From positions 1 to 44,330 of the IMG/VR virus record IMGVR_UViG_3300022745_000060: DNA of 44,330 nucleotides; one strand, 5' to 3'. Of this stretch, positions 4,285 to 44,094 are shown piece by piece. How positions within the stretch are numbered: position 1 is the first letter of the stretch; each line of letters opens with the position of its first letter. The DNA is from a virus. Under the pieces are notes generated by a model. That model was not told the DNA's origin and did not search any database. It worked only from the letters and a program-made list of their open reading frames with translations. Both the position numbers and the translations under genes were made by a program.

Positions 4285-5790
4285 TTAAAACGGCAAATTC
4301 CCTTCAAAATTCCGGTTGTCTGACTGGATTGGTTCTTGCAACGGTACTATGTTCGGTTGCTCCGACTTGACTAGAAACTGGTTAGAGGCGGATTGTACCT
4401 GTTCTTCCTGCCATTCCCACCATGACCCGGTGCGACCGTCAAAAGCCCGGTTTTTAGCGATAATATATTCGCAGTCGTACCTATTGTAAGACGTTCCTTT
4501 ATAGTTATAGCGCGTCACGATTTGCCCGCCTTCGTGGTGTTGTTCGCTCCAATCCTCGTATGCACCAGGCCGAAACAAAAGCAGCATCCAATCCCCTGCG
4601 TGTTCCATTGCGCTAGACCCTAGTACATCCTCTTTATGAGGTCTTCTATCTGCGCGGGTGTCTACACCTCGGTTGAACTGAGTAAGCAGTACCCCAAGTA
4701 TACCAGCGGCTTTATTGAACGCTGAAAAGTCTTTTGATAGCTTTGAAAGCGTCTTTACATCGTTTCCGCTGTTGTCGATCTTATCTATTCCGGTTTCACA
4801 AAGTTGGATATAGTCCAGGCAATAGGCAAATAGATCATACTTGCGAATGCACCAGCGGATTTTTTGCCGTATCAGCGTTCCTTTGTTGGTCGTTTCCTTC
4901 ATATCGAAAACGTAAAAGGGTAGATTTGAAACCCGCTTCAAAGCGTCTGAAAGCATCTTCATTTTATACTCAGGTAGTACCAGTTTATACTTTCCAGTAG
5001 CTTCATCAAATACACGGCTTGACAAATCCTTCATCGACAATCCGCTTTCGATCTTGTACACCCGCTGCCAAATCTGTTTTTTGGTAAGCTCCATTGAGAA
5101 GAATGCAACAGGCTTTCCGCTTTTTGCCAAATCCAAAAGCAACTTCAAAGCCTTTTCGGTTTTCCCCGTTCCTGTCGTACCAGCAATAAACCCAGTTTGG
5201 CCTTTTTGGACGCCGCCTGTAATCTCGTCGAATTCAGGCCAACAGGTAGATACTCCAATTTGCCCTTGCTCTATGTCTTGCCAAGCTTCATACATTTCAT
5301 CGCCTCGCGTCTTTTCTGGTTCTGGTTCTGAATAATCTGCCATTCGTTCTTGTACATATGCCCATGTTTCGCTTGGGTGGTACTGGCTATATTGCCCATT
5401 TTTCCTATCAAGCATCTGAGCATAAGCATCTGCGTAAATACCCAAATGCAATTCAATGTCGTATTCCTCTTTTAAAAATTCGATTGCAGAACTACATGTT
5501 TCAGGCTGTGAGTCCATAATCAAATCTGTAATGTCTCCCCACTTCGATGCGGCAATTTGCACATCCCAAGACATCATTTTGTTTACGTCCAAATCGTACA
5601 TCCACTCATAAATGACTCGAAAATGCTTGAACATTTCAGGTTTCAAAACCTTGTTGGCAATTGAAAAATATTCAGGCGCACAAAGCAGTGTTCCAATGAT
5701 ACTAGACTCTACGTGGTAAGTCGTTTTGGCTACGTCTTTTTGTTGGTTCTTGTTCATATCGCTAAGATTGATTTGTAAACATTGCGCCAT
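4285..5790 (-). CDS. dnaB: DnaB-like replicative helicase
   Basis: 501 residues. The N-terminal domain ESSIIGTLL is typical of DnaB. A linker leads to a RecA-type core with Walker A GTTGTGKT at about 204-211, the FFSMELT segment, Walker B FAYCLDYIQL, a switch-type LLTQFNRG, and HKEDVLGSSAMEHAGD. It unwinds DNA ahead of the phage fork as a hexamer. It overlaps the 110-residue gene upstream by 37 bases; an internal Met at residue 12 would reduce this overlap, so the start is uncertain. Helicase assignment is firm. Confidence 0.93.
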   Translation of the reverse strand: MAQCLQINLSDMNKNQQKDVAKTTYHVESSIIGTLLCAPEYFSIANKVLKPEMFKHFRVIYEWMYDLDVNKMMSWDVQIAASKWGDITDLIMDSQPETCSSAIEFLKEEYDIELHLGIYADAYAQMLDRKNGQYSQYHPSETWAYVQERMADYSEPEPEKTRGDEMYEAWQDIEQGQIGVSTCWPEFDEITGGVQKGQTGFIAGTTGTGKTEKALKLLLDLAKSGKPVAFFSMELTKKQIWQRVYKIESGLSMKDLSSRVFDEATGKYKLVLPEYKMKMLSDALKRVSNLPFYVFDMKETTNKGTLIRQKIRWCIRKYDLFAYCLDYIQLCETGIDKIDNSGNDVKTLSKLSKDFSAFNKAAGILGVLLTQFNRGVDTRADRRPHKEDVLGSSAMEHAGDWMLLLFRPGAYEDWSEQHHEGGQIVTRYNYKGTSYNRYDCEYIIAKNRAFDGRTGSWWEWQEEQVQSASNQFLVKSEQPNIVPLQEPIQSDNRNFEGNLPF

Positions 5791-6086
5791 TCAGGCTTTT
5801 TACTTTCTTCCATGTGCTTCCCTATTTCGATAATATCAGCAAGCACTTTCTCTTTTGGCGTTCCGTTCTGGATTGCTTCCTTAAATAAAAATATGCAAAA
5901 CTGACACCAAATTTCATGTTCTTTTGGTGATAACGATAGAGTTAAATTTGCCTCTTTCTTTACCTCAGTCTTATATTCATTACTCCCTGATCCAAACTTT
6001 GCACCTATTGCGTTAGTGCGTACCTGTTGGCGTTGAAGCGGGGCATGTAGTTCCTGGATTGCTTTAGAAAATTCTGTTCGGTTCAT
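5754..6086 (-). CDS. Hypothetical protein between initiator and helicase
   Basis: 110 residues, beginning MNRTEFSKAIQELHAP. The N-terminal half is polar; the C-terminal half is helical (SPKEHEIWCQFCIFLF, VLADIIEIGKHMEES). It starts with ATGA overlapping the stop of the initiator gene and overlaps the helicase start. Position between an O-like initiator and a DnaB-like helicase is where lambda-type phages keep a helicase loader, but it is much shorter than lambda P and has no loader motif. Role is inference from position. Confidence 0.7.
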   Translation of the reverse strand: MNRTEFSKAIQELHAPLQRQQVRTNAIGAKFGSGSNEYKTEVKKEANLTLSLSPKEHEIWCQFCIFLFKEAIQNGTPKEKVLADIIEIGKHMEESKKPEWRNVYKSILAI

Positions 6087-7006
6087 ACTCTTACCCCCAT
6101 TTTGGAAAATACATCGCCAACGGCTTTCAAATGCGCGTTGCTGGCCTCGATATCTTGTATTGTCAATTCGGGTTTCTGCTCAGTGTTGCGGATAGGTTGA
6201 AAGGACTTTATTGTTTCTGGGTTGTTCTTGTACTGGATAGGGCAGGGAACGACGACGGTTTTGTATTGAATTGCTTTGTTGATCCATGTAGCAATTGCAC
6301 CTCCCAACTTTTCGATCTTCCATCCAGTCTTGTCGTGGTGTAACCAAAATGCCTCTGCCTGATGATTAGCCCAGTTCCAGCAATCAATAATCTGTGGATG
6401 ATCTCTTTTTTTAGCAATTAACTTTTCATAAATTGGCTGTACCAATTCCTCTTGAGTAGGGGGGTAGATGTATTTTATCTTCTTTGCTTTTGACGGAATG
6501 ATTTCTACAACCTTAACCGCTGTTTCATCTACTTGATCGTGAATGGTTGTTAGGATTTCAGTTTCTTCAATTTTGGTTTGTGGTTCTTTCTTTTCTATTT
6601 TATTTAAGACTTTAATTTCTTTCTTTATATACTGTTCATTTTCTGAACACTTACTGTTCATTTTCTGAACACCTACCTGTTCATTTTCTGAACACCCATC
6701 GTTTAGTTTCTGAACATCTTGCTCATAAGCAATAGAGTAGAACTTAGCTGTTGCCCTCTTCAAATCATCACCTATTCGCTCTAAAAGTCCAGCAGAATCC
6801 ATGCGGTCAAAAATCCCTTTGACTGTTCCGCTAGATAACCCTAAAAAATCAGCTATCTTATGGCATCCGGTTTTTGTCCAGCCGTTTACCCCATACTCGG
6901 GATGGGTTTGAGTCTTGTAGATGTAATCTAAAACGCAGTATTCCAGAACGGAAATACCTAAAGCTTTGCGCGGGTTGTGTAGGACGTTGGTGTAAATCCA
7001 GTTCAT
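6083..7006 (-). CDS. Replication initiator-like protein with winged-helix N-terminus
   Basis: 307 residues from the ATG at 7006 (MNWIYTNVLHNP); a longer frame to 7069 runs through a terminator hairpin and is rejected. Residues about 20-95 look like a winged helix (EYCVLDYIYKT, HKIADFLGLSSGTVKGIF, MDSAGLLER), as in lambda O and plasmid-type initiators. The middle is Lys/Glu-rich and contains DNA repeats (6633-6716) that fit an origin. The C-terminus probably contacts other replication proteins. It is the first gene of the leftward operon and has a structured, regulated leader. Confidence 0.75.
   Translation of the reverse strand: MNWIYTNVLHNPRKALGISVLEYCVLDYIYKTQTHPEYGVNGWTKTGCHKIADFLGLSSGTVKGIFDRMDSAGLLERIGDDLKRATAKFYSIAYEQDVQKLNDGCSENEQVGVQKMNSKCSENEQYIKKEIKVLNKIEKKEPQTKIEETEILTTIHDQVDETAVKVVEIIPSKAKKIKYIYPPTQEELVQPIYEKLIAKKRDHPQIIDCWNWANHQAEAFWLHHDKTGWKIEKLGGAIATWINKAIQYKTVVVPCPIQYKNNPETIKSFQPIRNTEQKPELTIQDIEASNAHLKAVGDVFSKMGVRV
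6633..6716. repeat. Four iteron-like repeats inside the initiator gene, candidate origin
   Basis: TGTTCA-TTTTC-TGAACA occurs at 6633-6649, 6655-6671 and 6678-6694, with a degraded copy at 6700-6716 that keeps TTTCTGAACA. Spacing is 22, 23 and 22 bases. The middle copy is translated in a different frame (VQKMN rather than CSENEQ), so the DNA, not the protein, is what is conserved. An A-rich tract (minus strand, below 6633) lies next to the repeats, like the unwinding element beside the iterons of lambda ori in gene O. Confidence 0.7.
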
Positions 7007-7036
7007 ATTCTTAATGTTAGTAGGTTTAAAAAGAAA

Positions 7037-7130
7037 ATGCCCGCCTAAAGTGTGAGACCCGGCGAGCATCCTTAGTTATAATCCCATTAAGAATATGACG
7101 TTTAGGGGTCTCACTTCCAAAAGTCATATT
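7037..7130 (-). ncRNA. Loop-loop complementary leader with terminator, upstream of initiator gene
   Basis: Minus-strand leader beginning about 5 bases after the -7 box. Hairpin 1 has an 8-pair stem AATATGAC/GTCATATT (7130-7123 with 7099-7092), and its loop carries GTGAGACCC (7114-7106). The terminator hairpin has a 9-pair stem ATGCTCGCC/GGCGGGCAT (7069-7061 with 7045-7037, one G-U pair) and a T-rich tail. Its loop carries GGGTCTCAC (7060-7052), the exact complement of hairpin 1's loop. The two hairpins can therefore kiss, or an alternative pairing can break the terminator. Confidence 0.7.
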
Positions 7131-7134
7131 TCTA

Positions 7135-7165
7135 CAAAGATACAAAATAAATTCAAAAAAATCAA
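7135..7165 (-). promoter_or_regulatory. Leftward early promoter
   Basis: On the minus strand TTG (7165-7163), a 20-base spacer and TATCTTTG (7142-7135), a perfect Bacteroidota -7 box TAnnTTTG. Transcription should start near 7129, at the first hairpin of the leader of the replication operon. Confidence 0.75.
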
Positions 7166-7367: not shown

Positions 7368-7438
7368 AAAAAATCCCGGCAATACACCGGGAACTAACCA
7401 AACAACATCCTCATGATATAAAAAGTACTCAATGCTAG
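7368..7438 (-). ncRNA. Candidate ~70-base leftward small RNA or attenuated leader
   Basis: Starts a few bases after the promoter at 7475-7444 and ends at a hairpin CCCGG/CCGGG (7391-7387 with 7379-7375) followed on the minus strand by ATTTTTT. It contains a possible six-residue leader peptide (MRMLFG, ATG at about 7414) ending just before the hairpin. Could be a free small RNA or an attenuator for read-through into the replication operon. Confidence 0.45.
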
Positions 7439-7443
7439 TGACA

Positions 7444-7475
7444 CAAATCTACAACCTATTTTTCAAACCTGCAAA
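7444..7475 (-). promoter_or_regulatory. Second leftward promoter in control region
   Basis: Minus strand TTTG (7475-7472), 20 bases, TAGATTTG (7451-7444): a full match to the Bacteroidota promoter consensus. The next thing downstream is the terminated short RNA at 7438-7368. Confidence 0.65.
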
Positions 7476-7515: not shown

Positions 7516-7585
7516 TATCTTTGTTTTGCAGAGTTTACGTTTTTCATACTACTGATGTAGGCCGGGCATCTGCGTCCGGTTTTTA
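7516..7585 (+). promoter_or_regulatory. Rightward promoter and leader with terminator hairpin
   Basis: -7 box TATCTTTG at 7516-7523; no clear -33 TTG at the usual distance. The leader has a hairpin CCGGGC/GTCCGG (7562-7567 with 7574-7579) followed by TTTTT, ending only about 10 bases before the ATG at 7596. Five loop bases (TCTGC, 7569-7573) are complementary to GCAGA at the transcript start (7528-7532), a weaker form of the pairing seen in the other two leaders. Confidence 0.5.
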
Positions 7586-7595
7586 AACCAAAAAA

Positions 7596-7808
7596 ATGAG
7601 TGAAACAGATAAATACATTGATGAAATAGTCAATGATTCATGCGATGAATTAATACCAGAGGATTACTATTCTATTGCTGCAAAATTAGCAATAGCAATG
7701 GCAATAAGTGATTTATCAAAGAGTATTGATCGCGCATTTGGAACACAGATAGATGGTGTCCCAGCTTTTTTAGAAAAAATATCAATGGTTTTAGAGAATG
7801 GCAAATAA
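7596..7808 (+). CDS. Small acidic hypothetical protein, first rightward gene
   Basis: 70 residues, beginning MSETDKYIDEIVNDSCDEL. Acidic N-terminus and a helical middle (YYSIAAKLAIAMAISDLSKSI). No family recognised. Its start follows a leader terminator, so expression may depend on antitermination. Confidence 0.7.
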   Translation: MSETDKYIDEIVNDSCDELIPEDYYSIAAKLAIAMAISDLSKSIDRAFGTQIDGVPAFLEKISMVLENGK

Positions 7809-8610: not shown

Positions 8611-9711
8611 TTGAAATTAATCGACATACTGCAAAATCCAGAAAACCCGCGAGTGCTACGGGATGAAAAGTTTGCAAAGCTAAAGCAAAGCATTCAAGAG
8701 TTTCCAAGAATGATGTCACTCCGGCCTATTGTGATTGACAACATGGGAATGATACTTGGCGGTAACATGCGTTACAGGGCTTTACAGGATTTAGGGTTTA
8801 AGGAAATACCGGATGATTGGGTTAAGCGTGCAGACGAATTGACAGCGGAAGAAAAACGGCGGTTTATTATTGCGGATAACGTCGGATTTGGGGAGTGGGA
8901 TTTTGACGAGTTGTCAAATAATTGGGATGTCGAGGATTTGGAGGCATGGGGGCTTGATGTGCCAGGGTTTGAAGATGAAAAACTTGAGGCACAAGAGGAT
9001 GATTATGAAGAACCTGAAAACATTCAAACAGATATTATTTTAGGCGACTTGTTTCAAATCGGCAAACATCGCCTTTTGTGTGGGGATAGCACAATAAGTG
9101 AAAACATTGAAAAAGTAACTCAAAGGGAAAGTGTTGACTTTATCTTTACTGATCCTGATTACTCAATGGAAGATGAAGGATTATTTTCCTGCTATGCAAA
9201 CACATTACAATTGAAAGCAAAAGCATCTTTGTGGGTTTGTGCCGACAAACAAGCTGTAAAACTTGCAATGAATGATTTTGAGAACTTTAGCAGCTTTTTT
9301 ATCCATGATTTTAAAGTACCTACATTGATATCAAACACAAGGGCAATGCAGCGCCACAATATGATTGTTTGCTTTGGTAGTTGTGCAATCAAAAATAGGT
9401 CGGACGGGTTTGCAACGATTGTGCCTATTGCTACAGAAAGAACACTTGAAAGTCACAAGGTTTTTAGAATGGCAAAACGGGTCGGACTGCCAGCGGCTTT
9501 TATAGATCATTTTACAGATGCAGGCAATATAATTGTTGATATTTTTGCGCATAGCGGTTCGACAATTGTTGCAGCGCATCAATTACAACGCGTGTGCTAT
9601 GCAATAGAAATTGACCCGCGTTACTGTTATTTAATTATTGACCGCTTGTTGAAGCTCGACCCTAGTTTAGTTGTTTTGAAAAATGGGCAACCTTATTCAA
9701 ATATTCCGTAA
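8611..9711 (+). CDS. ParB-domain DNA methyltransferase with altered catalytic motifs
   Basis: 366 residues from a TTG start: the ParB-like domain (residues 1-60, NPENPRVLRDEKFAKLKQSI, RPIVID, LGGNMRYRAL) begins at once and no ATG precedes it in frame. The methyltransferase half has the order expected for N6-adenine/N4-cytosine enzymes, catalytic motif first, then the AdoMet motif. The catalytic motif is TDPDYS at 180-185 instead of DPPY, and the AdoMet loop is IFAHSGST (about 311-318) instead of a FxGSGT type. It may protect phage DNA or be inactive. It lies just before the terminase, a usual place in such phages. Confidence 0.8.
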   Translation: MKLIDILQNPENPRVLRDEKFAKLKQSIQEFPRMMSLRPIVIDNMGMILGGNMRYRALQDLGFKEIPDDWVKRADELTAEEKRRFIIADNVGFGEWDFDELSNNWDVEDLEAWGLDVPGFEDEKLEAQEDDYEEPENIQTDIILGDLFQIGKHRLLCGDSTISENIEKVTQRESVDFIFTDPDYSMEDEGLFSCYANTLQLKAKASLWVCADKQAVKLAMNDFENFSSFFIHDFKVPTLISNTRAMQRHNMIVCFGSCAIKNRSDGFATIVPIATERTLESHKVFRMAKRVGLPAAFIDHFTDAGNIIVDIFAHSGSTIVAAHQLQRVCYAIEIDPRYCYLIIDRLLKLDPSLVVLKNGQPYSNIP

Positions 9712-21763: not shown

Positions 21764-21794
21764 TTTTGTTATTAAAAATATTATATTATCTTTG
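21764..21794 (+). promoter_or_regulatory. Host-type promoter of the RAMP cassette
   Basis: TTG at 21766-21768, 18 bases, TATCTTTG at 21787-21794. The -7 box is identical to that of the leftward early promoter, unlike the TAACTTGC boxes of the neighbouring late operons. Transcription should start at about 21800. Confidence 0.7.
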
Positions 21795-21799
21795 ACTTA

Positions 21800-21890
21800 T
21801 CCTTTGAACGGAGTGATGTACGCTCAAAGGAACAATTAGCAAATAAAATTGCTAACCTTGGCTGTCTGTACATCACCGGACAGCCTTTTT
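21800..21890 (+). ncRNA. Three-hairpin leader with exact loop-loop complement and terminator
   Basis: Hairpin 1: TCCTTTGA (21800-21807) with TCAAAGGA (21824-21831), loop containing GTGATGTA (21813-21820). Hairpin 2: TTAGCAA (21836-21842) with TTGCTAA (21849-21855). Hairpin 3: nine-pair stem 21860-21868 with 21877-21885, loop exactly TACATCAC (21869-21876), then six T. Loop 3 is the full reverse complement of the GTGATGTA in loop 1. It ends 12 bases before the ATG of the RAMP-like gene, so it is a leader, or a stand-alone RNA that also acts as one. Confidence 0.75.
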
Positions 21891-21902
21891 TATTTTATTA
21901 AT

Positions 21903-22538
21903 ATGGCCACTAAAACAGTTCAAAGCCCAACGGTGCAAATTAAAGCACCAAATTTTCAAGTAATTGAAGTTGAAATTGTAGGAACTGCGCCTTTTATGCA
22001 AGCTCGCTTTTCTCAAAAGTCGATGCTACAAATGGCCGACAAGATGAAAGCAGGGTCTACCGCTACGGGTAAAAAAGTTAGAAACGCCCGTGACTTCGAC
22101 GAAGACTTTGAGCAGGCAAAGCACATTTCAATGGATGGATGGGTTGGCATTCCAGCTAGTGCCTTTCGTTCTGCCTGTATTCGGGTGTGTTCTCTTGTTG
22201 GGTTCAAAATGACTCAGGCAAAAATGTCAATCTTTTTTGAAGCCGATGGCGAGGACAAGGTAGACGGCATTCCACTTGTAAAATTAATCGCAGGCGAACC
22301 AGAAAAATCCATGATGGCAACCCGAAATGCTACGGGAGTTGCTGATTTGCGTTGCCGTCCACTATGGCGCAAATGGGGTGCAAAGCTTCGGGTAAAATTT
22401 GATGCCGATCAATTCACTGCTCAGGATGTAATCAACTTAGTTCACCGAGCTGGTGTTCAATGCGGCGTTGGCGAAGGTAGACCATTTTCAAAAGATTCAA
22501 ACGGCTTAGGCTATGGGACTTTCACAATCAAAAATTAA
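21903..22538 (+). CDS. RAMP (Cas7-like) fold candidate
   Basis: 211 residues from the ATG at 21903; an upstream frame to 21849 would run through the terminator hairpin. Signatures in RAMP order: strand and turn EVEIVGTAPFM (22-32), GIPASAFRSACIR (82-94), which fits the IPGSSLKGxxR helix of Cas7/Csm3 proteins, and a C-terminal glycine loop CGVGEGRPFSKDSNGLGYG (187-205). Similar proteins are known in other phages without a defined role. It may coat RNA. It overlaps its partner gene by 26 bases and is followed by the pentamer array. Confidence 0.6.
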   Translation: MATKTVQSPTVQIKAPNFQVIEVEIVGTAPFMQARFSQKSMLQMADKMKAGSTATGKKVRNARDFDEDFEQAKHISMDGWVGIPASAFRSACIRVCSLVGFKMTQAKMSIFFEADGEDKVDGIPLVKLIAGEPEKSMMATRNATGVADLRCRPLWRKWGAKLRVKFDADQFTAQDVINLVHRAGVQCGVGEGRPFSKDSNGLGYGTFTIKN

Positions 22539-27825: not shown

Positions 27826-28935
27826 ATGGCAGCACAAAACGTTACCACGGGCGACTTGAACGATGTTCAGATCAAGTTGTCCGAAATGTACGCAGGCAAC
27901 ACGCCGTCGAAATACCCCTACAAGGATTTCATTGGTACAGCCCGCGCCATTACCGAAAACAACGACGGAACGCCCTCCACGACCATGATTATGGCGGACG
28001 GCGAATGCGTCGCAACTCAGGTGCATTGGTTAACTAAGGGAGGAACGTCCTTGAGTTACACGGGTACAGGGTCTAGCCCTTCCCTTTCCTTGTCTTGTGA
28101 TCTTGCAGCAGGTGAAGGAGCTATTGCCAACTCGCAAACCTACAACAACAACGTTGTAGAAATTGCGAATGTCAACATTCTCGACAATGTTTGCGGCAAT
28201 ATCTGGGACTTCCAGACCTTGAGCGCCGCACAGCTTGCCCGCGCCATGTTCGACATTCGCGCAAGTTTCAATGCCCGCGCAATCACATTTTTGGACGGTG
28301 CAAAGTCCGCCGTGAACAACGATGCAGATGTAACCGCTGGAAACGTAGACGGTGTATCTTTTGCCTCTTCAACGTTCAGCGTATCCTCAACCGTTCTGCC
28401 TTGGAACACGCCCGACAGCTTGACCGTACTCGATACGATTGTAGCCAATAACGCGATGGACACCGCCTTCTGGGTTGGTGGTCGCAACTCTTTCTACAAC
28501 GCAATCGTGAACGCTGAGTACCGCCGTTTGAATGCGGATGAAGCCGATTTGGTGCGCTTCGACAACTACAATATGTTTTTCGATGTAAAAAACCTGGATT
28601 CTTCACTGACCGGCAAAAACCTGTTCTCTGTTGGGGAGGGTTCATACCTGTTCTGGAATACCGAGGTATACGACAGCACGCAGTTTACCCAAATTGATGA
28701 AACCAAATGGGTTGCGATGATGCCCGACCCGATTTGGAAGTACAAGAATGGTACAGGCCAGCTTGTTCCAGTGATGTACAACGTCGTGTACCAAAAAGTG
28801 TGTAGTGCGCGGAATAGCTCTACGCTGAAGCACCAAATTTCACACAAGTACGAAGTGCGTCTTCAAGGTGGATTGGTTCAAGCCCCTGCCAGCGAAGATA
28901 ACCATACTGGTATCTTGAAATTCCAATTGGTGTAA
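27826..28935 (+). CDS. Major capsid protein
   Basis: 369 residues from the ATG at 27826; the longer frame to 27703 overlaps the terminator. Contents: helical N-terminus, MADGECVATQVHWLTKGG, DFQTLSAAQLARAMFDIRAS, ITFLDGAKSAVN, WVGGRNSFYNAIVNAEYRR, and a C-terminal beta region. Size, position after the scaffold and the mixed alpha/beta pattern fit an HK97-type capsid. Several cysteines are present. The assignment is by context. Confidence 0.75.
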   Translation: MAAQNVTTGDLNDVQIKLSEMYAGNTPSKYPYKDFIGTARAITENNDGTPSTTMIMADGECVATQVHWLTKGGTSLSYTGTGSSPSLSLSCDLAAGEGAIANSQTYNNNVVEIANVNILDNVCGNIWDFQTLSAAQLARAMFDIRASFNARAITFLDGAKSAVNNDADVTAGNVDGVSFASSTFSVSSTVLPWNTPDSLTVLDTIVANNAMDTAFWVGGRNSFYNAIVNAEYRRLNADEADLVRFDNYNMFFDVKNLDSSLTGKNLFSVGEGSYLFWNTEVYDSTQFTQIDETKWVAMMPDPIWKYKNGTGQLVPVMYNVVYQKVCSARNSSTLKHQISHKYEVRLQGGLVQAPASEDNHTGILKFQLV

Positions 28936-31084: not shown

Positions 31085-31729
31085 ATGACTAGCAACCTTA
31101 ACACATATACGGATTGCAGCGGGTGCGACTTATACAGTCTCCCCGCTGCACCTGTGTGTGTACGCAAACCGATCTTTTCGCAAATTACCCGCTTGGTTAT
31201 CCTTCCAAATGCAGCGCAATTACCAGCGGATTGGACAGTTGGCGGAGATTGGGAAGCGGTTGTAAACAATGCAAGCACAACGATTGCTTTTGGGCGCATC
31301 CTTCACGGCAAAGGAGGGCTACCTGACCCAAGTGAGGCAAGTGTAAGTTTAGGTAAAATCGACCGACGCATTACCCGCCGTCGCTACAATCTGGATTTTG
31401 AATTGACTGTGAACAGCCAAACCCGTGAGATACTGCGAAAAATGCAACGTGGGTTGATTGATTTTCGGTTTTGGTACTTCACGGCGGGTGATTGGTTATT
31501 CGGTGGGGCTACTGGCATTAAGCCCTTGGTTGTTTCCGCTGTTTTGCCATTATTGCCAGGTGGCAATGACTTTGAATTAGGCCGAATCCGCATCGAATTT
31601 GCGGCGGATATTGACCCGCTTGGCGCTTATGTGCCTGATTTTGTAAATGCTGACTTGTATTCTGGCTACCTGATTGACAATGCAGGCGATTTCTTAACAG
31701 ATAACTCAGATAAATTTTTAGAGGTATGA
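31085..31729 (+). CDS. Tail tube-like protein, paralog 2
   Basis: 214 residues. Shares with the preceding protein the cysteine-bearing N-terminus (CSGCD, PVCVRKPIFSQI), RRYNLDFELTV, REILRKMQRGLIDFRFWYF, GATGIKPLVVSAVLPLLPGG and an acidic end. It has a 25-30 residue C-terminal extension (NADLYSGYLIDNAGDF). Its stop overlaps the fiber start. Confidence 0.6.
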   Translation: MTSNLNTYTDCSGCDLYSLPAAPVCVRKPIFSQITRLVILPNAAQLPADWTVGGDWEAVVNNASTTIAFGRILHGKGGLPDPSEASVSLGKIDRRITRRRYNLDFELTVNSQTREILRKMQRGLIDFRFWYFTAGDWLFGGATGIKPLVVSAVLPLLPGGNDFELGRIRIEFAADIDPLGAYVPDFVNADLYSGYLIDNAGDFLTDNSDKFLEV

Positions 31730-34700
31730 AAAATATCATCCTTTTTTTGGCTTTCCTTTTGCCTCTTTCGTTGATTGGGCAAATCAATTTTAACACACTG
31801 CCTAGCGCAACAGTTGTAACCCCTACAACTCCCTTCCCTACCGTAAATTCAGGTGGTAATTGGCGCAAGGTTTCAGCGGATTTGATGCGCGCTTTCATTA
31901 TGCCCCGGCCTGTTACAAGGGTATCCCCTACCAACCGCTATGTTTTGGGCTATGTAAATGCTTCAGATTCGCTTCAATACATCCCCGGTGGCCTTATGTC
32001 GCAATTACCGCTTGGTAGCGTAACAATTTCCGCTGCTACAAACTCTCTTACTCTTTCGGGGCTTGGTGGGCTTAACTTCAACACTACATCGTGGGGTTCT
32101 GGTTGGGTGAATAGACTTGCACTAACTAGATCAGGGTCTAGTACGTTGTCCTTACTCAAAGGTGGGCAGACAATATCAATCAGTGCCGATACTTTAACAG
32201 GTGCTTCAATGCGCTGGAATAACATTGGATTTAGAGCAAAATCGGATTCGATGTTCATTACCCCGGAAAGCTTGGACAGTATAACGGTTGGCGAGGCACT
32301 TATAGTTGCTACGAAGTTTTCCGATAAGGCATATATCAAGAGTAAATCTGTTTCAGTTTCTGGTACAGCAGGTGGTGACTTAACTGGAACTTATCCAAAC
32401 CCGACAATCGGCAACAACAAGGTAATTTCTGCTTATGTACTAGATGGAACTTTAGTAAATGCAGACTTTGCAAGTCAAACAATAGACAGCAACAAGGTTA
32501 AAAACGGGGCGATTACTCCAATCAAAATCAACAAAACAGGCGCAACAGGGGGGCAAGTGCTGAAATATAATTCTAGTACTGGTAATGTTGAATGGGCTAG
32601 AGACTCAAGCGTATATACAACTAATGGCAGAATTGCAACGACGCGCACAATAAACTTTGGGTCAGGTGCTACAAATAATAATTTCGGATCAACAGTTTAT
32701 ACTGTGGGGTTAAATCAAAGCAGTCCAGAATGGTCTAGTTTTATGAGGTCACCTAATACTCTTAATTCTACAACTTTTGATCAAAGAAATTCAAATTCAC
32801 TAACCTATATAGGTTTAATCGGTAATACTAAAAATAGGACAGCTAATCCAATTAGATACGATAATTATTTTTCAGGTGACAATAGTACTACATCACTTGT
32901 TGGTTTTTCTGCAACACTATTGGCAAAATCTAATAATCAAACAGGTGCAGTACAGGTAATAGATTCAACAAAAAACAGATACGGATCATTTTTATATTCC
33001 ACTTTTAACGCCACTCAAAAAAACTCAATTGTTGGTTTAGTAAAAGGGGGATTTGGAATTGGGAATACTTATACTAAGTCGTTGAAATCATCCTTTGTTG
33101 TACAAACAAGTTTTACGGATACTACAAACTTATTTAACTGGATCAAAATTGATGATATCGAAAATGATACAACTAGCAATCGAATATCTTTTTACAATGG
33201 TAAATACGTTTTCCCAAACTCAGCACCAGGATCAGGTAACAAAATTATTGAGTGGCAAAGTGGTGTACCAGTCTGGATTTCTACACCTTCGGGTGGCGGA
33301 TCAGGTATCACTGCTTTAACTGGAGATGTAACAGCAAGCGGGACAGGAAGTGTTGCAGCTACGATTGCGGCCAATGCGGTAACATCTGCTAAAGTTGCAA
33401 GTCAAACACTTGACTCTACTGATTTAAAAAATAGAGGAACTACCTTGCTTAAATTAGCTCAAAGTGGGGCTACAAATGGCCAAGTACCGAAGTACAACTC
33501 AACAACTGGCAATTGGGAGCCTGCTGCTGATAACAGCACAGGGGGAAGTACAATAACGGAAAAACGTATTTACTACAGAAATGAGGTATATAAAAACATG
33601 CTAATTAATACCTCAACTGGATTATTAAGTACAGATTCAACAAAAGATGTAACAGACCTTCTTCCAGTAAATCCTAGTGAATCAATAACTATTTACACTG
33701 CAAACGCTTCAAATGTAACTATTTACGGATGGTTTTATAATGCATCAAGACAACCTATTTCAGAAATTAGAAGTAGCTCACTCATAAGTACACCATTAAA
33801 CTCATATACAGTTACAACTCCAAGCAATACAAAGTATATTTGTATCTATGTTAGATATAATAATGGGGTAGACTTTTCCGCGCTACTTAAAATAGAAAGT
33901 ACTTCTAACTACACTTACAACATCCCGATTACACCAGAAAACTATACAGGTACGACATCTTCGAGAATACAGCAAGCTCTTGATTTTGCGAGATTTACAA
34001 CTTCTGCTGTTGAATTAAAGGGTCTTTACTTGATAGATTCTACGATTATCCTTCACTCAGGAAATACTTTGATTCTAAATAATGCACGAGTTAGAATGAA
34101 CACAGGTATGCGGACAAACATGGTGAGAAATGAATCCGTAAAATCGCAAGACTCTATTTTTTCTCGTGGAAATGTCAATATTAAAATCATTGGAATTGGG
34201 AATGCTATTTTTGAAGGGAATGACGACAATTGGGGTAGCGATAATCCAACTGGAGTTGGTTCTAAAAGATGGTCATCAATAGGGATACTTTTTGCTAACG
34301 TTCAAAGATTCGATGTTACTGGAATAATGATAAAAAATACAAAAGCGTGGTCTATGTGTTTTGAACAATGTCAAATTGGGTCAATTACAAATATTACGTT
34401 TGAACAAAATAAAGCTCAAGCAAATCAGGATGGGATAAACATCAGAAGAGGTTCCAACAGAATTACAATTGAAAATGTAAAAGGATACACATATGATGAT
34501 ATGATTGCATTAACAAATATAGAAGCTGCCCCAACAATAAATATATTAGGAGCAAGGAGCTATATGCCTACAAACCCTAAAAAAGAAATCAGAGATATTA
34601 TAATCAAAAATATACAAAGAAAAGCTGTTGGAGTGTTCCCTGCTAACATTCTATACTATGGTGGAATATTACTACTATGTGCTGACTCACTTAAAATACA

Positions 34701-36075
34701 TAATATTACTATTGATGGGGTCACTGGTATAGCACAAATAAATGTTGGATTTCTTGGGTATGCATTGGCATCTGAAGCTACTGTGAATGACCTTTATAAT
34801 ATAAATATTTCAAATACAAATAAAGCTCCAATTTACATTAATCAGCCTATAAAAAATAGTTCATTTACAAATATTGCTAGAATAGATAGCACAGGTTCCT
34901 TTGCGTCAGGTGTATTCCCAAGTGGGTCATATAACAATTTTAGAAAATATCAAGACGGATACCCTGAATTTTTTGATTCAAATAATAATAGGGCTATTTC
35001 AGAAATAAATTCTACAACTTTTGAAGACTTTTCACTTACAAATTCAAATGCGAGTGGGACAATTGGCCTTAAAGTGAAAAATAATCTAGGTAATTATGCT
35101 TATTTGAGAGCATACGGATCAACTGCTACTCCGTCAACACTTCAAAACAAAATGCTTTTTGGGGCTTCTAGTGGGGATTTAATTATTTCCTCAAACGTAA
35201 GTGTCTCTCCACCAACATCATCTAGGATAATACTTAATGCTAATTCATACACTACATCTAATTCAGCAATGGCTATCTTCGGCAGTACCAATAACGTAAG
35301 TATTGGAAATACAATAGATAATGGATACAAACTTGATGTAACAGGGTCTACTAGAACATCAGGTAATTTTGTGATTACATCAACAAATTCTAACGACCTT
35401 AGCAGTGTGACAATTACAAATGATGCTTCAACTAATGCTTTTTTTCGAGTATATGGATCAACTGCAAGTTTAAGCCATTTATCCAACAGAGCAGGATTTG
35501 GAACAACTAGCGATCTCTTACTTTTTACTGATTCCAATTCTGGAAGCGGAGGCTCAAAAGCAGTTAAAATATATGCAGGGGGCTATAATGCAGATCAGGA
35601 ACGAATCCACATAACAAAAGAAGGTGTTCGGATAAATTCACAGAGTAACGCTACGGCTGCATTACATCTTCCTGCGGTTACAGCAACAGCAGGAACTGCA
35701 CCTCTAAAATTCACATCAGGCACAAACTTAACCACACCTGAAGCGGGAGCAGTGGAGTACGACGGTACAGAATTTTACGCTACCAATTCAGGCGCAAGCA
35801 GGACTATTTTAGCCCGTGTCCTAAAAGGTAGCGCAACGCTAGACTTTGGAAGCACGGCGGCGGGGGCGGTAACTGATCTGACTATAACCGTAACAGGTGC
35901 AGCCGATGGTGATGTAGTAAGTTTAAGTGTACAAAATGCAAGCCAAACTGCAACGGGGTCATTTTCAGCGTGGGTAAGTGCTGCAAATACTGTTACGGTT
36001 CGATATAGAATTGCTGCTTTAACTGGATCAGAAGACCCCGCAAGTGGGACATTTAAAGTAACAGTAACGAAATAA
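31726..36075 (+). CDS. Large tail fiber / spike with signal peptide and beta-helix
   Basis: 1449 residues. The first 19 residues (MKNIILFLAFLLPLSLIGQ) are a textbook signal peptide. Then a repeat-rich shaft: GGDLTGTYPNPTIGNN and LTGDVTASGTGSVAATI, each followed by NxxxTSAKVxSQTLDSxxL-like segments and Gly-rich linkers. Residues about 720-1060 form a pectate-lyase-type right-handed beta-helix (SIGILFANVQRFDVTGI, NQDGINIRRGSNRITIENV), which may degrade host polysaccharide. The C-terminal domain is Thr/Ala/Gly-rich. The middle (about 32600-35600) is AT-rich, hinting at acquisition. Confidence 0.8.
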   Translation: MKNIILFLAFLLPLSLIGQINFNTLPSATVVTPTTPFPTVNSGGNWRKVSADLMRAFIMPRPVTRVSPTNRYVLGYVNASDSLQYIPGGLMSQLPLGSVTISAATNSLTLSGLGGLNFNTTSWGSGWVNRLALTRSGSSTLSLLKGGQTISISADTLTGASMRWNNIGFRAKSDSMFITPESLDSITVGEALIVATKFSDKAYIKSKSVSVSGTAGGDLTGTYPNPTIGNNKVISAYVLDGTLVNADFASQTIDSNKVKNGAITPIKINKTGATGGQVLKYNSSTGNVEWARDSSVYTTNGRIATTRTINFGSGATNNNFGSTVYTVGLNQSSPEWSSFMRSPNTLNSTTFDQRNSNSLTYIGLIGNTKNRTANPIRYDNYFSGDNSTTSLVGFSATLLAKSNNQTGAVQVIDSTKNRYGSFLYSTFNATQKNSIVGLVKGGFGIGNTYTKSLKSSFVVQTSFTDTTNLFNWIKIDDIENDTTSNRISFYNGKYVFPNSAPGSGNKIIEWQSGVPVWISTPSGGGSGITALTGDVTASGTGSVAATIAANAVTSAKVASQTLDSTDLKNRGTTLLKLAQSGATNGQVPKYNSTTGNWEPAADNSTGGSTITEKRIYYRNEVYKNMLINTSTGLLSTDSTKDVTDLLPVNPSESITIYTANASNVTIYGWFYNASRQPISEIRSSSLISTPLNSYTVTTPSNTKYICIYVRYNNGVDFSALLKIESTSNYTYNIPITPENYTGTTSSRIQQALDFARFTTSAVELKGLYLIDSTIILHSGNTLILNNARVRMNTGMRTNMVRNESVKSQDSIFSRGNVNIKIIGIGNAIFEGNDDNWGSDNPTGVGSKRWSSIGILFANVQRFDVTGIMIKNTKAWSMCFEQCQIGSITNITFEQNKAQANQDGINIRRGSNRITIENVKGYTYDDMIALTNIEAAPTINILGARSYMPTNPKKEIRDIIIKNIQRKAVGVFPANILYYGGILLLCADSLKIHNITIDGVTGIAQINVGFLGYALASEATVNDLYNINISNTNKAPIYINQPIKNSSFTNIARIDSTGSFASGVFPSGSYNNFRKYQDGYPEFFDSNNNRAISEINSTTFEDFSLTNSNASGTIGLKVKNNLGNYAYLRAYGSTATPSTLQNKMLFGASSGDLIISSNVSVSPPTSSRIILNANSYTTSNSAMAIFGSTNNVSIGNTIDNGYKLDVTGSTRTSGNFVITSTNSNDLSSVTITNDASTNAFFRVYGSTASLSHLSNRAGFGTTSDLLLFTDSNSGSGGSKAVKIYAGGYNADQERIHITKEGVRINSQSNATAALHLPAVTATAGTAPLKFTSGTNLTTPEAGAVEYDGTEFYATNSGASRTILARVLKGSATLDFGSTAAGAVTDLTITVTGAADGDVVSLSVQNASQTATGSFSAWVSAANTVTVRYRIAALTGSEDPASGTFKVTVTK

Positions 36076-43585: not shown

Positions 43586-44094
43586 TACGCAAATTGTTCA
43601 GTAATTCTCCAGAAAATGTCCTCCGAAAAGGATTTGGTTTCTGGATTAAAAAAAGGTTCAAGCAACTTGTAAAGCTTCAAATATGAAGATGTTGAAGTGC
43701 CAGCAAGCAATACAAAGTTTTTGTCGACGCTAGAAAACCGGATTTGGCCTACTAGGGGGCAGCCTTCGGTATCGGTTGACTTATTCCCTTTGTGCACTCT
43801 TACGTTGCCGTGACGGCCTGCGCGATCAATTGGCGGGTTATCCATCAAAGCAATTGCGAATTGGTGACCATGTGCTTCTCGGTACTTGTCGTAAAACTTC
43901 CCAAACTGAATTGGAACGACATGGTAAGTTCCCATGTCGATACGGGTTTTACCATGTTCTTTGACTTTTCGGTATCCGTCCTCAAGTACATCACAAACCC
44001 ATGTTGGAGTTGTGCCGTCCTTTTGGAATTGGGCTATTAATGTGCCGCGTGTACTATCTTGAGTTTGTTCGCAGCGAATGTGGTCTAAAATCAT
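43585..44094 (-). CDS. DUF5675 family protein, candidate cell-wall enzyme
   Basis: 169 residues. Matches the DUF5675 layout: N-terminal beta part (TLIAQFQKDGTTPTWVC), LEDGYRKVKEHGKTRID, MGTYHVVPIQF, then RVHKGNKSTDTEGCPLVG with conserved His, Asp and Cys. This resembles the active site of L,D-transpeptidase-like wall enzymes. DUF5675 proteins are frequent in Bacteroidota phages and are suspected lysis or wall-modifying proteins. No other endolysin is recognisable here, so this is the best candidate. Confidence 0.8.
   Translation of the reverse strand: MILDHIRCEQTQDSTRGTLIAQFQKDGTTPTWVCDVLEDGYRKVKEHGKTRIDMGTYHVVPIQFGKFYDKYREAHGHQFAIALMDNPPIDRAGRHGNVRVHKGNKSTDTEGCPLVGQIRFSSVDKNFVLLAGTSTSSYLKLYKLLEPFFNPETKSFSEDIFWRITEQFA

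Follow-up and report, generated by a model that had tools for sequence, protein, structure and literature searches.

Kissing-hairpin leaders before two unlinked operons of a viral contig, and a candidate class of RNA antiterminators in related phages

In fluoride and preQ1 riboswitches, the RNA strand shared by the two alternative structures lies in the terminator stem, and in the antisense-RNA attenuators of plasmids such as pT181 and pIP501 a loop-loop contact with a separate antisense RNA decides the fate of a leader terminator. Guanidine-IV riboswitches form a family held in Rfam. Reports on them describe a kissing interaction with the terminator loop that leads to read-through, proposedly by preventing formation of the full terminator stem (PMC7736828, PMC11611296, PMC10907184). 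In a stretch of viral DNA of 44,330 nucleotides (IMG/VR record IMGVR_UViG_3300022745_000060, positions 1–44,330; hereafter the window), we analyzed two leaders, W1 on the minus strand and W2 on the plus strand, in which the loop of a promoter-proximal hairpin (hairpin 1) is complementary to the loop of a terminator-like hairpin. This loop-loop pairing is referred to as the kiss.

The W1 hairpin 1 starts four bases past the -7 box and holds GTGAGACCC in its loop (7114–7106). The GC-rich terminator hairpin has a loop of 15 bases, consisting of GGGTCTCAC (7060–7052) and ACTTTA, and GTGAGACCC and GGGTCTCAC are perfectly complementary. The W1 loop word was found nowhere else in the window, and 21 bases separate the end of the T-run from the ATG at 7006. 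W2 spans positions 21787–21891 and follows the same design with the kiss GTGATGTAC / GTACATCAC. The TTG and the -7 box of W1 (Table 1) are presumably a promoter, as they resemble the promoter pattern of Bacteroidota. A preceding sequence-only reading had described for W1 an 8-pair hairpin 1, its spacing from the box, the loop words and the terminator loop, all of which we reproduced at the minus-strand coordinates, and the second leader near 21800 likewise had the architecture proposed for it. Two more copies of GTGATGTAC occur in sense orientation inside open reading frames (ORFs) of the window, at 28771–28779 (+) and 43986–43994 (-), where 0.12 copies are expected by chance (both strands, all copies). 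They are possibly due to chance or to contacts in trans.

A structure scan that demanded a promoter-like -7 box, hairpin 1, a terminator with T-run and a loop-loop match returned exactly W1 and W2 from the window and no third leader. Among 1000 dinucleotide-Markov shuffles of the window, any kiss of at least 7 bp occurred in 80 and one of at least 9 bp in 4, and in no shuffle did two of the latter occur together. Folding without the pseudoknot, compared with shuffles, gave z-scores of −2.99 (W1) and −5.49 (W2). Both leaders thus exceed chance. A narrower script, which found 8-bp matches 4 times in 60 shuffles, returned W2 only, because its limit on G-U pairs excluded W1. Similarly, a terminator-consensus tool listed the W2 terminator and missed that of W1, since the 15-base loop exceeds the 8-base limit of the tool. 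A candidate third leader at 7516 (+) was rejected, as it showed only a 5-base loop complementarity (GCAGA/TCTGC) that is lost in the closest relative (L006, see below). This region (7516–7596, +) has a divergent promoter TATCTTTG, a short terminator-like CCGG..CCGG hairpin and a T-run followed by an ATG, and L006 shares its promoter-proximal part (GCAGAGTTT, CATACTACTGAT). The word GATGTAGGCCGG is present twice, in this divergent leader at ~7553 (+) and 5' of the W1 promoter at ~7185 (-).

Both leaders have relatives in which the letters differ and the pairing is intact. Based on the replication proteins behind W1 (DnaB and a 110-aa protein), the only close relative was IMG/VR contig 3300036980_000594 (L006), the DnaB of which is 76% identical to that of the window. 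A second candidate, L010, gave a 22% match only, and searches of genome contigs gave no match; no DNA similarity of the window to phages was found. L006 carries a leader at the equivalent site, before a replication gene whose N-terminal part is unlike that of the window, and its kiss is GTGAGAGC / GCTCTCAC, a compensatory change with respect to W1. The relatives of W2 in contigs L174 and L207 precede a gene other than the one behind W2. In L207 the kiss is GTGATGCAC / GTGCATCAC and the hairpin-1 stem also differs from that of W2, with both fully paired. The differing letters and intact pairing in L006 and L207 indicate that both leaders conserve the pairing. Loss of pairing in relatives had been named beforehand as the outcome that would speak against the design; the pairing was instead kept, with compensatory changes, in L006, L174, L207 and a wider set of leaders, and the proposal of one RNA design on two unlinked operons is therefore supported. 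In L207 (~4105–4010, -), a further pairing of ~9 bp beyond the kiss is possible, as judged by eye, between the 3' side of hairpin 1 (CAGCCAAGG) and the 5' side of the terminator (CCTTGGCTG). This predicted pairing may act as an alternative antiterminator; none was seen in the few other leaders inspected by eye.

The wider set was obtained from IMG/VR viral contigs with a pattern of -7 box, GTGAGA and TCTCAC, which gave 50 stretches, 36 of them distinct. The next kiss position, which the pattern did not demand, was paired in 28/36 matches vs 13/76 with two other cores (2/14 and 11/62; Fisher 7e-10). From the 50 stretches, 26 were chosen as leaders by eye with the kiss lengths already seen. Therefore, the figures for the 15 clusters that they form at 80% identity (next position paired in 14/15, second in 10/15, third in 1/15) are partly circular, whereas the 28/36 figure is not. 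In an alignment of ten leaders with 25 pairs (A5), 96.8% of the cells were paired (shuffles 83.0%), and changes on both sides occurred in 31 cells (shuffles 8.7) and at 13 of the 25 pairs. No pair of the kissing helix was broken in this alignment (100% paired); its two variable pairs showed 3 and 4 pair types, and sliding the partner by 1–3 columns reduced the pairing to 29–44%. A structure-only scan of 44 sequences (647 kb) yielded 26 matches, whereas 20 shuffles averaged 2.8 and the reversed sequence gave 3. Three of these matches look like chance (L043 at 8808, L081, and L045 at 438), which is the number that the shuffles predict. Among 100 loci retrieved for other patterns (816 kb), the scan found three matches, all leader-like.

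The GTGAGA word is favored without being required. A scan for the core GTGATG (82 stretches; 80 listed loci examined, 62 distinct) returned mostly chance matches, leaders making up 3/62 distinct stretches among the loci listed (L174, L207 and L182). The scrambled core GAGTGA matched 20 stretches (14 distinct), none of them a convincing leader, which suggests that the GTGAGA word itself is favored beyond its pairing; this favored GTGAG word is what hints most at a common factor. Loop words met across the leaders were GTGAGANN, GTGATGYAC, GGTCGAG and CGGGCAGG. A word-free scan found GGTCGAGA (L058 at 6620) and GGTCGAG (L045) in contigs that also carry a GTGAGA leader, as does L046 with the less clear case of GGTCTCAA. 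Matches resembling leaders were also detected in the isolates Flavobacterium phage 11b (CGGGCAGG) and Cellulophaga phage phi18:3 (CTTCTGAC). These differing words in the word-free scan and in 11b indicate that GTGAGA is dispensable and that specificity lies in the self-pairing. A match in Polaribacter phage P12002L was judged to be chance, and the same was assumed for a second, AT-rich match in 11b from a scan with a narrower -7 box. The hosts are probably Bacteroidota, as the promoter pattern and the isolated phages 11b and phi18:3 suggest.

An H-type pseudoknot has a short first loop and no second loop. Of 28 leaders, 26 folded as expected and served for measuring the geometry. The linkers in hairpin 1 had medians of 2 bases before and 0 after the kiss, the kiss abutted the 5' arm of the terminator (median linker 0), and the spacer between the kiss arms ranged from 39 to 60 bases. 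The median kiss comprised 8 bp with −10.8 kcal/mol. This shared geometry is that of an H-type pseudoknot whose 3' strand sits in the terminator loop. Several leaders leave few or no linker bases beside the kiss in the terminator loop, and the kiss and a closed stem would then be expected to strain one another.

In 23 of the 26 leaders, the ATG of an ORF of at least 40 aa lies 15–71 bases past the terminator loop word. Ten downstream proteins comprised three with HNH_3 (two also with NUMOD4), one each with Lin1244_N, DUF3987 and a DEAD/ResIII helicase, and four without match. The downstream genes are thus phage genes with their own promoter and belong to no single pathway, which speaks against a metabolite switch. 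Leaders precede HNH-type endonuclease genes twice in L045 and in L058 (Pfam HNH_3) as well as, by eye, in L013, L041, L046 and L082, as if HNH single-gene cassettes carried their own promoter and leader.

The leader structure is well supported. As to its function, we lean towards the view that the leaders are cis-acting kissing-hairpin antiterminators or attenuators without a conserved ligand core, in which the kiss promotes read-through. This direction is proposed because of the guanidine-IV precedent and the geometry. W1 and W2 possess the general trait of attenuators, an intrinsic terminator between the promoter and the first gene, and each leader would be a self-contained RNA switch acting in cis on this promoter-proximal terminator. 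RNA polymerase would start a few bases past TATCTTTG, and hairpin 1 would fold first. As hairpin 1 is the first RNA made, the pseudoknot could form once the terminator loop exits the polymerase, the emerging loop pairing with the hairpin-1 loop over 7–10 bp. The resulting H-type pseudoknot would consist of the hairpin-1 stem, ~2 bases, the kissing helix and, with no linker, the second hairpin-1 arm. By stiffening and spreading the terminator loop, the kiss would make closure of the terminator stem late or incomplete, and the polymerase would continue into the gene; if the kiss is prevented by whatever means, transcription would end upstream of the gene. Candidates for the modulating signal are a factor bound to the recurrent GTGAG loop and the speed of the polymerase, or there may be no signal. 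Tentatively, and with less confidence than in the switch itself, the leaders could represent a ligand-free, RNA-only class of kissing antiterminators in Bacteroidota phages. Self-complementarity would be their sole specificity, with words drifting by compensatory change, and several differing units per genome would travel with single-gene cassettes such as HNH genes, a GTGAG subclass being read by a common on/off factor.

Several results weigh against this proposal. The computed terminators are stronger than the kiss (medians −17.4 vs −10.8 kcal/mol), which makes default termination possible. No ORF is near in three of the 26 leaders (L020, L024, and L058 at 2074), the next one being ~350–385 bases off. 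Guanidine-IV requires a ligand, and none is apparent for these leaders. Within the GTGAGA set, pairing of the next position did not differ significantly between matches that passed the structure filter and those that did not (15/17 vs 13/19, p = 0.15), because the filter missed many leaders. Finally, 14 isolate phage genomes gave only 3 matches, compared to ~1 per shuffle, and thus add little numerically.

The same terminator strength and the large W1 loop would fit the opposite direction, in which capture of the terminator loop by hairpin 1 makes closure faster or more stable; the gene would be off or low by default, and melting of hairpin 1 by a factor of the phage or host would relieve this. 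In several leaders, the length of the loop linkers permits kiss and stem at the same time. We regard such kiss-aided termination as rather unlikely, however, since W2, L024, L045 and L058 at 2074 leave only 0–1 linker bases per side, straining co-existence, and the guanidine-IV precedent points the other way. It is improbable that the leader is instead a stand-alone RNA of ~100 bases that acts in trans or is merely stable, the next gene being just a neighbor. A 5'-terminal hairpin with a terminator is typical of small RNAs, and the leaders lacking a close ORF and the additional GTGATGTAC copies (28771 and 43986) would agree with this idea. Yet an ORF start follows in 23/26 leaders, the kiss words differ between leaders of one phage (L058, L045), as cis pairing predicts, and the W1 loop word is unique in the window. 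Perfect inverted repeats beside a promoter, and the recurrence of GTGAGA in unrelated contigs, set against the lack of a convincing leader among the 14 distinct matches of scrambled GAGTGA, could also reflect a DNA operator, with a repressor binding GTGAGACCC ... GGGTCTCAC on double-stranded DNA; this is very improbable, because the repeat arms lie inside hairpin loops whose stems covary, their spacing varies from 39 to 60 bases, and two leaders of one phage have differing words. A processive antiterminator that stays folded on RNA polymerase and confers resistance to distant terminators is hardly to be expected either: promoter-proximal two-hairpin RNAs on two separate operons recall putL and putR of phage HK022 (PMC9378689), but both put stem-loops lie upstream of and separate from their target terminators, whereas hairpin 2 of the leaders is itself terminator-like with a T-run.

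The genes behind the two leaders are listed in Table 1. The earlier designation of a replication operon behind W1 is borne out for 7006–4285 by the DnaB-like helicase (Pfam and PHROGs) and the weak O-like match. The O-like gene had no Pfam match (scanned as 6083–7003), and protein searches of viral contigs and phages gave no relatives of it. Relatives of the W2-led gene, 57–62% identical to it, are present in a cyanophage and in contigs that lack a leader of this kind, a sign of transfer between distant phages. No such leader was seen by eye in the upstream stretches of its relatives in phages of other groups (L002–L004), and a strict structure scan detected none in the cyanophage stretch (L005). 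Elsewhere in the window, according to PHROGs, the product of 8611–9711 (+) is a fusion of a ParB-like nuclease domain and a DNA methyltransferase. A 1449-aa protein (31726–36075, +) matches glycosyl hydrolase family 28 and is likely a tail protein with a depolymerase domain.

Table 1 Features of the two leaders and the genes that follow them in the window.
Feature	Position	Strand	Basis
-33-like TTG of W1 promoter, 20 bases 5' of -7 box	7163..7165	-	sequence
-7 box TATCTTTG of W1	7135..7142	-	sequence
W1 hairpin 1, stem AATATGAC (7130–7123) / GTCATATT (7099–7092), 8 pairs	7092..7130	-	sequence, fold, structure scan
W1 terminator-like hairpin, arms ATGCTCGCC (7069–7061) / GGCGGGCAT (7045–7037)	7037..7069	-	sequence, fold, structure scan
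T-run TTTCTTTTT 3' of W1 terminator hairpin	7028..7036	-	sequence
Operon gene 1, 307 aa, ATG 7006, weak replication-initiator O-like match	6083..7006	-	PHROG 391, E 0.0009 (scanned as 6083–7069)
Operon gene 2, 110 aa, 73% conserved in L006	5754..6086	-	comparison with L006
DnaB-like replicative helicase	4285..5790	-	Pfam and PHROGs
-7 box TATCTTTG of W2	21787..21794	+	sequence
W2 hairpin 1, stem TCCTTTGA/TCAAAGGA, loop with GTGATGTAC at 21813–21821	21800..21831	+	sequence, fold, structure scan
W2 additional middle hairpin, stem TTAGCAA/TTGCTAA, also present in L174 and L207	21836..21855	+	sequence, fold
W2 terminator hairpin, loop with GTACATCAC at 21868–21876; T-run from 21886	21860..21885	+	fold, structure scan, terminator tool
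W2-led gene, 211 aa, PHROG 4652	21903..22538	+	PHROGs

Rfam gave no match in the window and no leader match in ten relatives (one tRNA elsewhere). For W2 there was no match at E values up to 1, and the W1 region gave one sub-threshold match, PsrR1 at 7369–7464, outside the leader. In the titles and abstract openings covered by a literature search, no description of such leaders in Bacteroidota phages was found; candidate RNAs of palindromic character (HMP_4078) are mentioned near phage domains of Bacteroidetes (PMC8040213). Antitermination in phages of Bacteroidota, which are major gut and water bacteria, is little described in the literature reached. A structural element that recurs in many phages while fixing hardly any sequence escapes sequence searches and existing RNA family models, and if the kiss sets read-through, it would constitute an RNA switch of very small size whose specificity can be exchanged.

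Guanidine-IV (GGAM-1) and its variant Gd4v resemble the leaders in having a loop-loop pseudoknot between two hairpins, of which the 3' one is an intrinsic terminator immediately upstream of the gene. Both are ON switches in which the kiss yields read-through, which we propose for the leaders by analogy. In contrast, the leaders have a kiss of 7–10 bp that varies by compensatory change, with entire loop words differing, and they precede phage genes and lack an Rfam match. Where guanidine-IV has conserved nucleotides, the leaders have variable kiss positions with 3 and 4 pair types and diverse loop words. The put element of HK022 is likewise a phage RNA-only antitermination element that opens two early operons, a role that the leaders would share by analogy; put acts on distant terminators via RNA polymerase, whereas in the leaders the pairing partner is the loop of the leader's own, adjacent terminator. 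With the fluoride and preQ1 riboswitches the leaders have in common the H-type geometry and, in the proposed mechanism, co-transcriptional competition with a terminator, but their shared strand is in the terminator loop and no ligand pocket was seen. Unlike in the pT181 and pIP501 attenuators, both loops of the kiss belong to one transcript.
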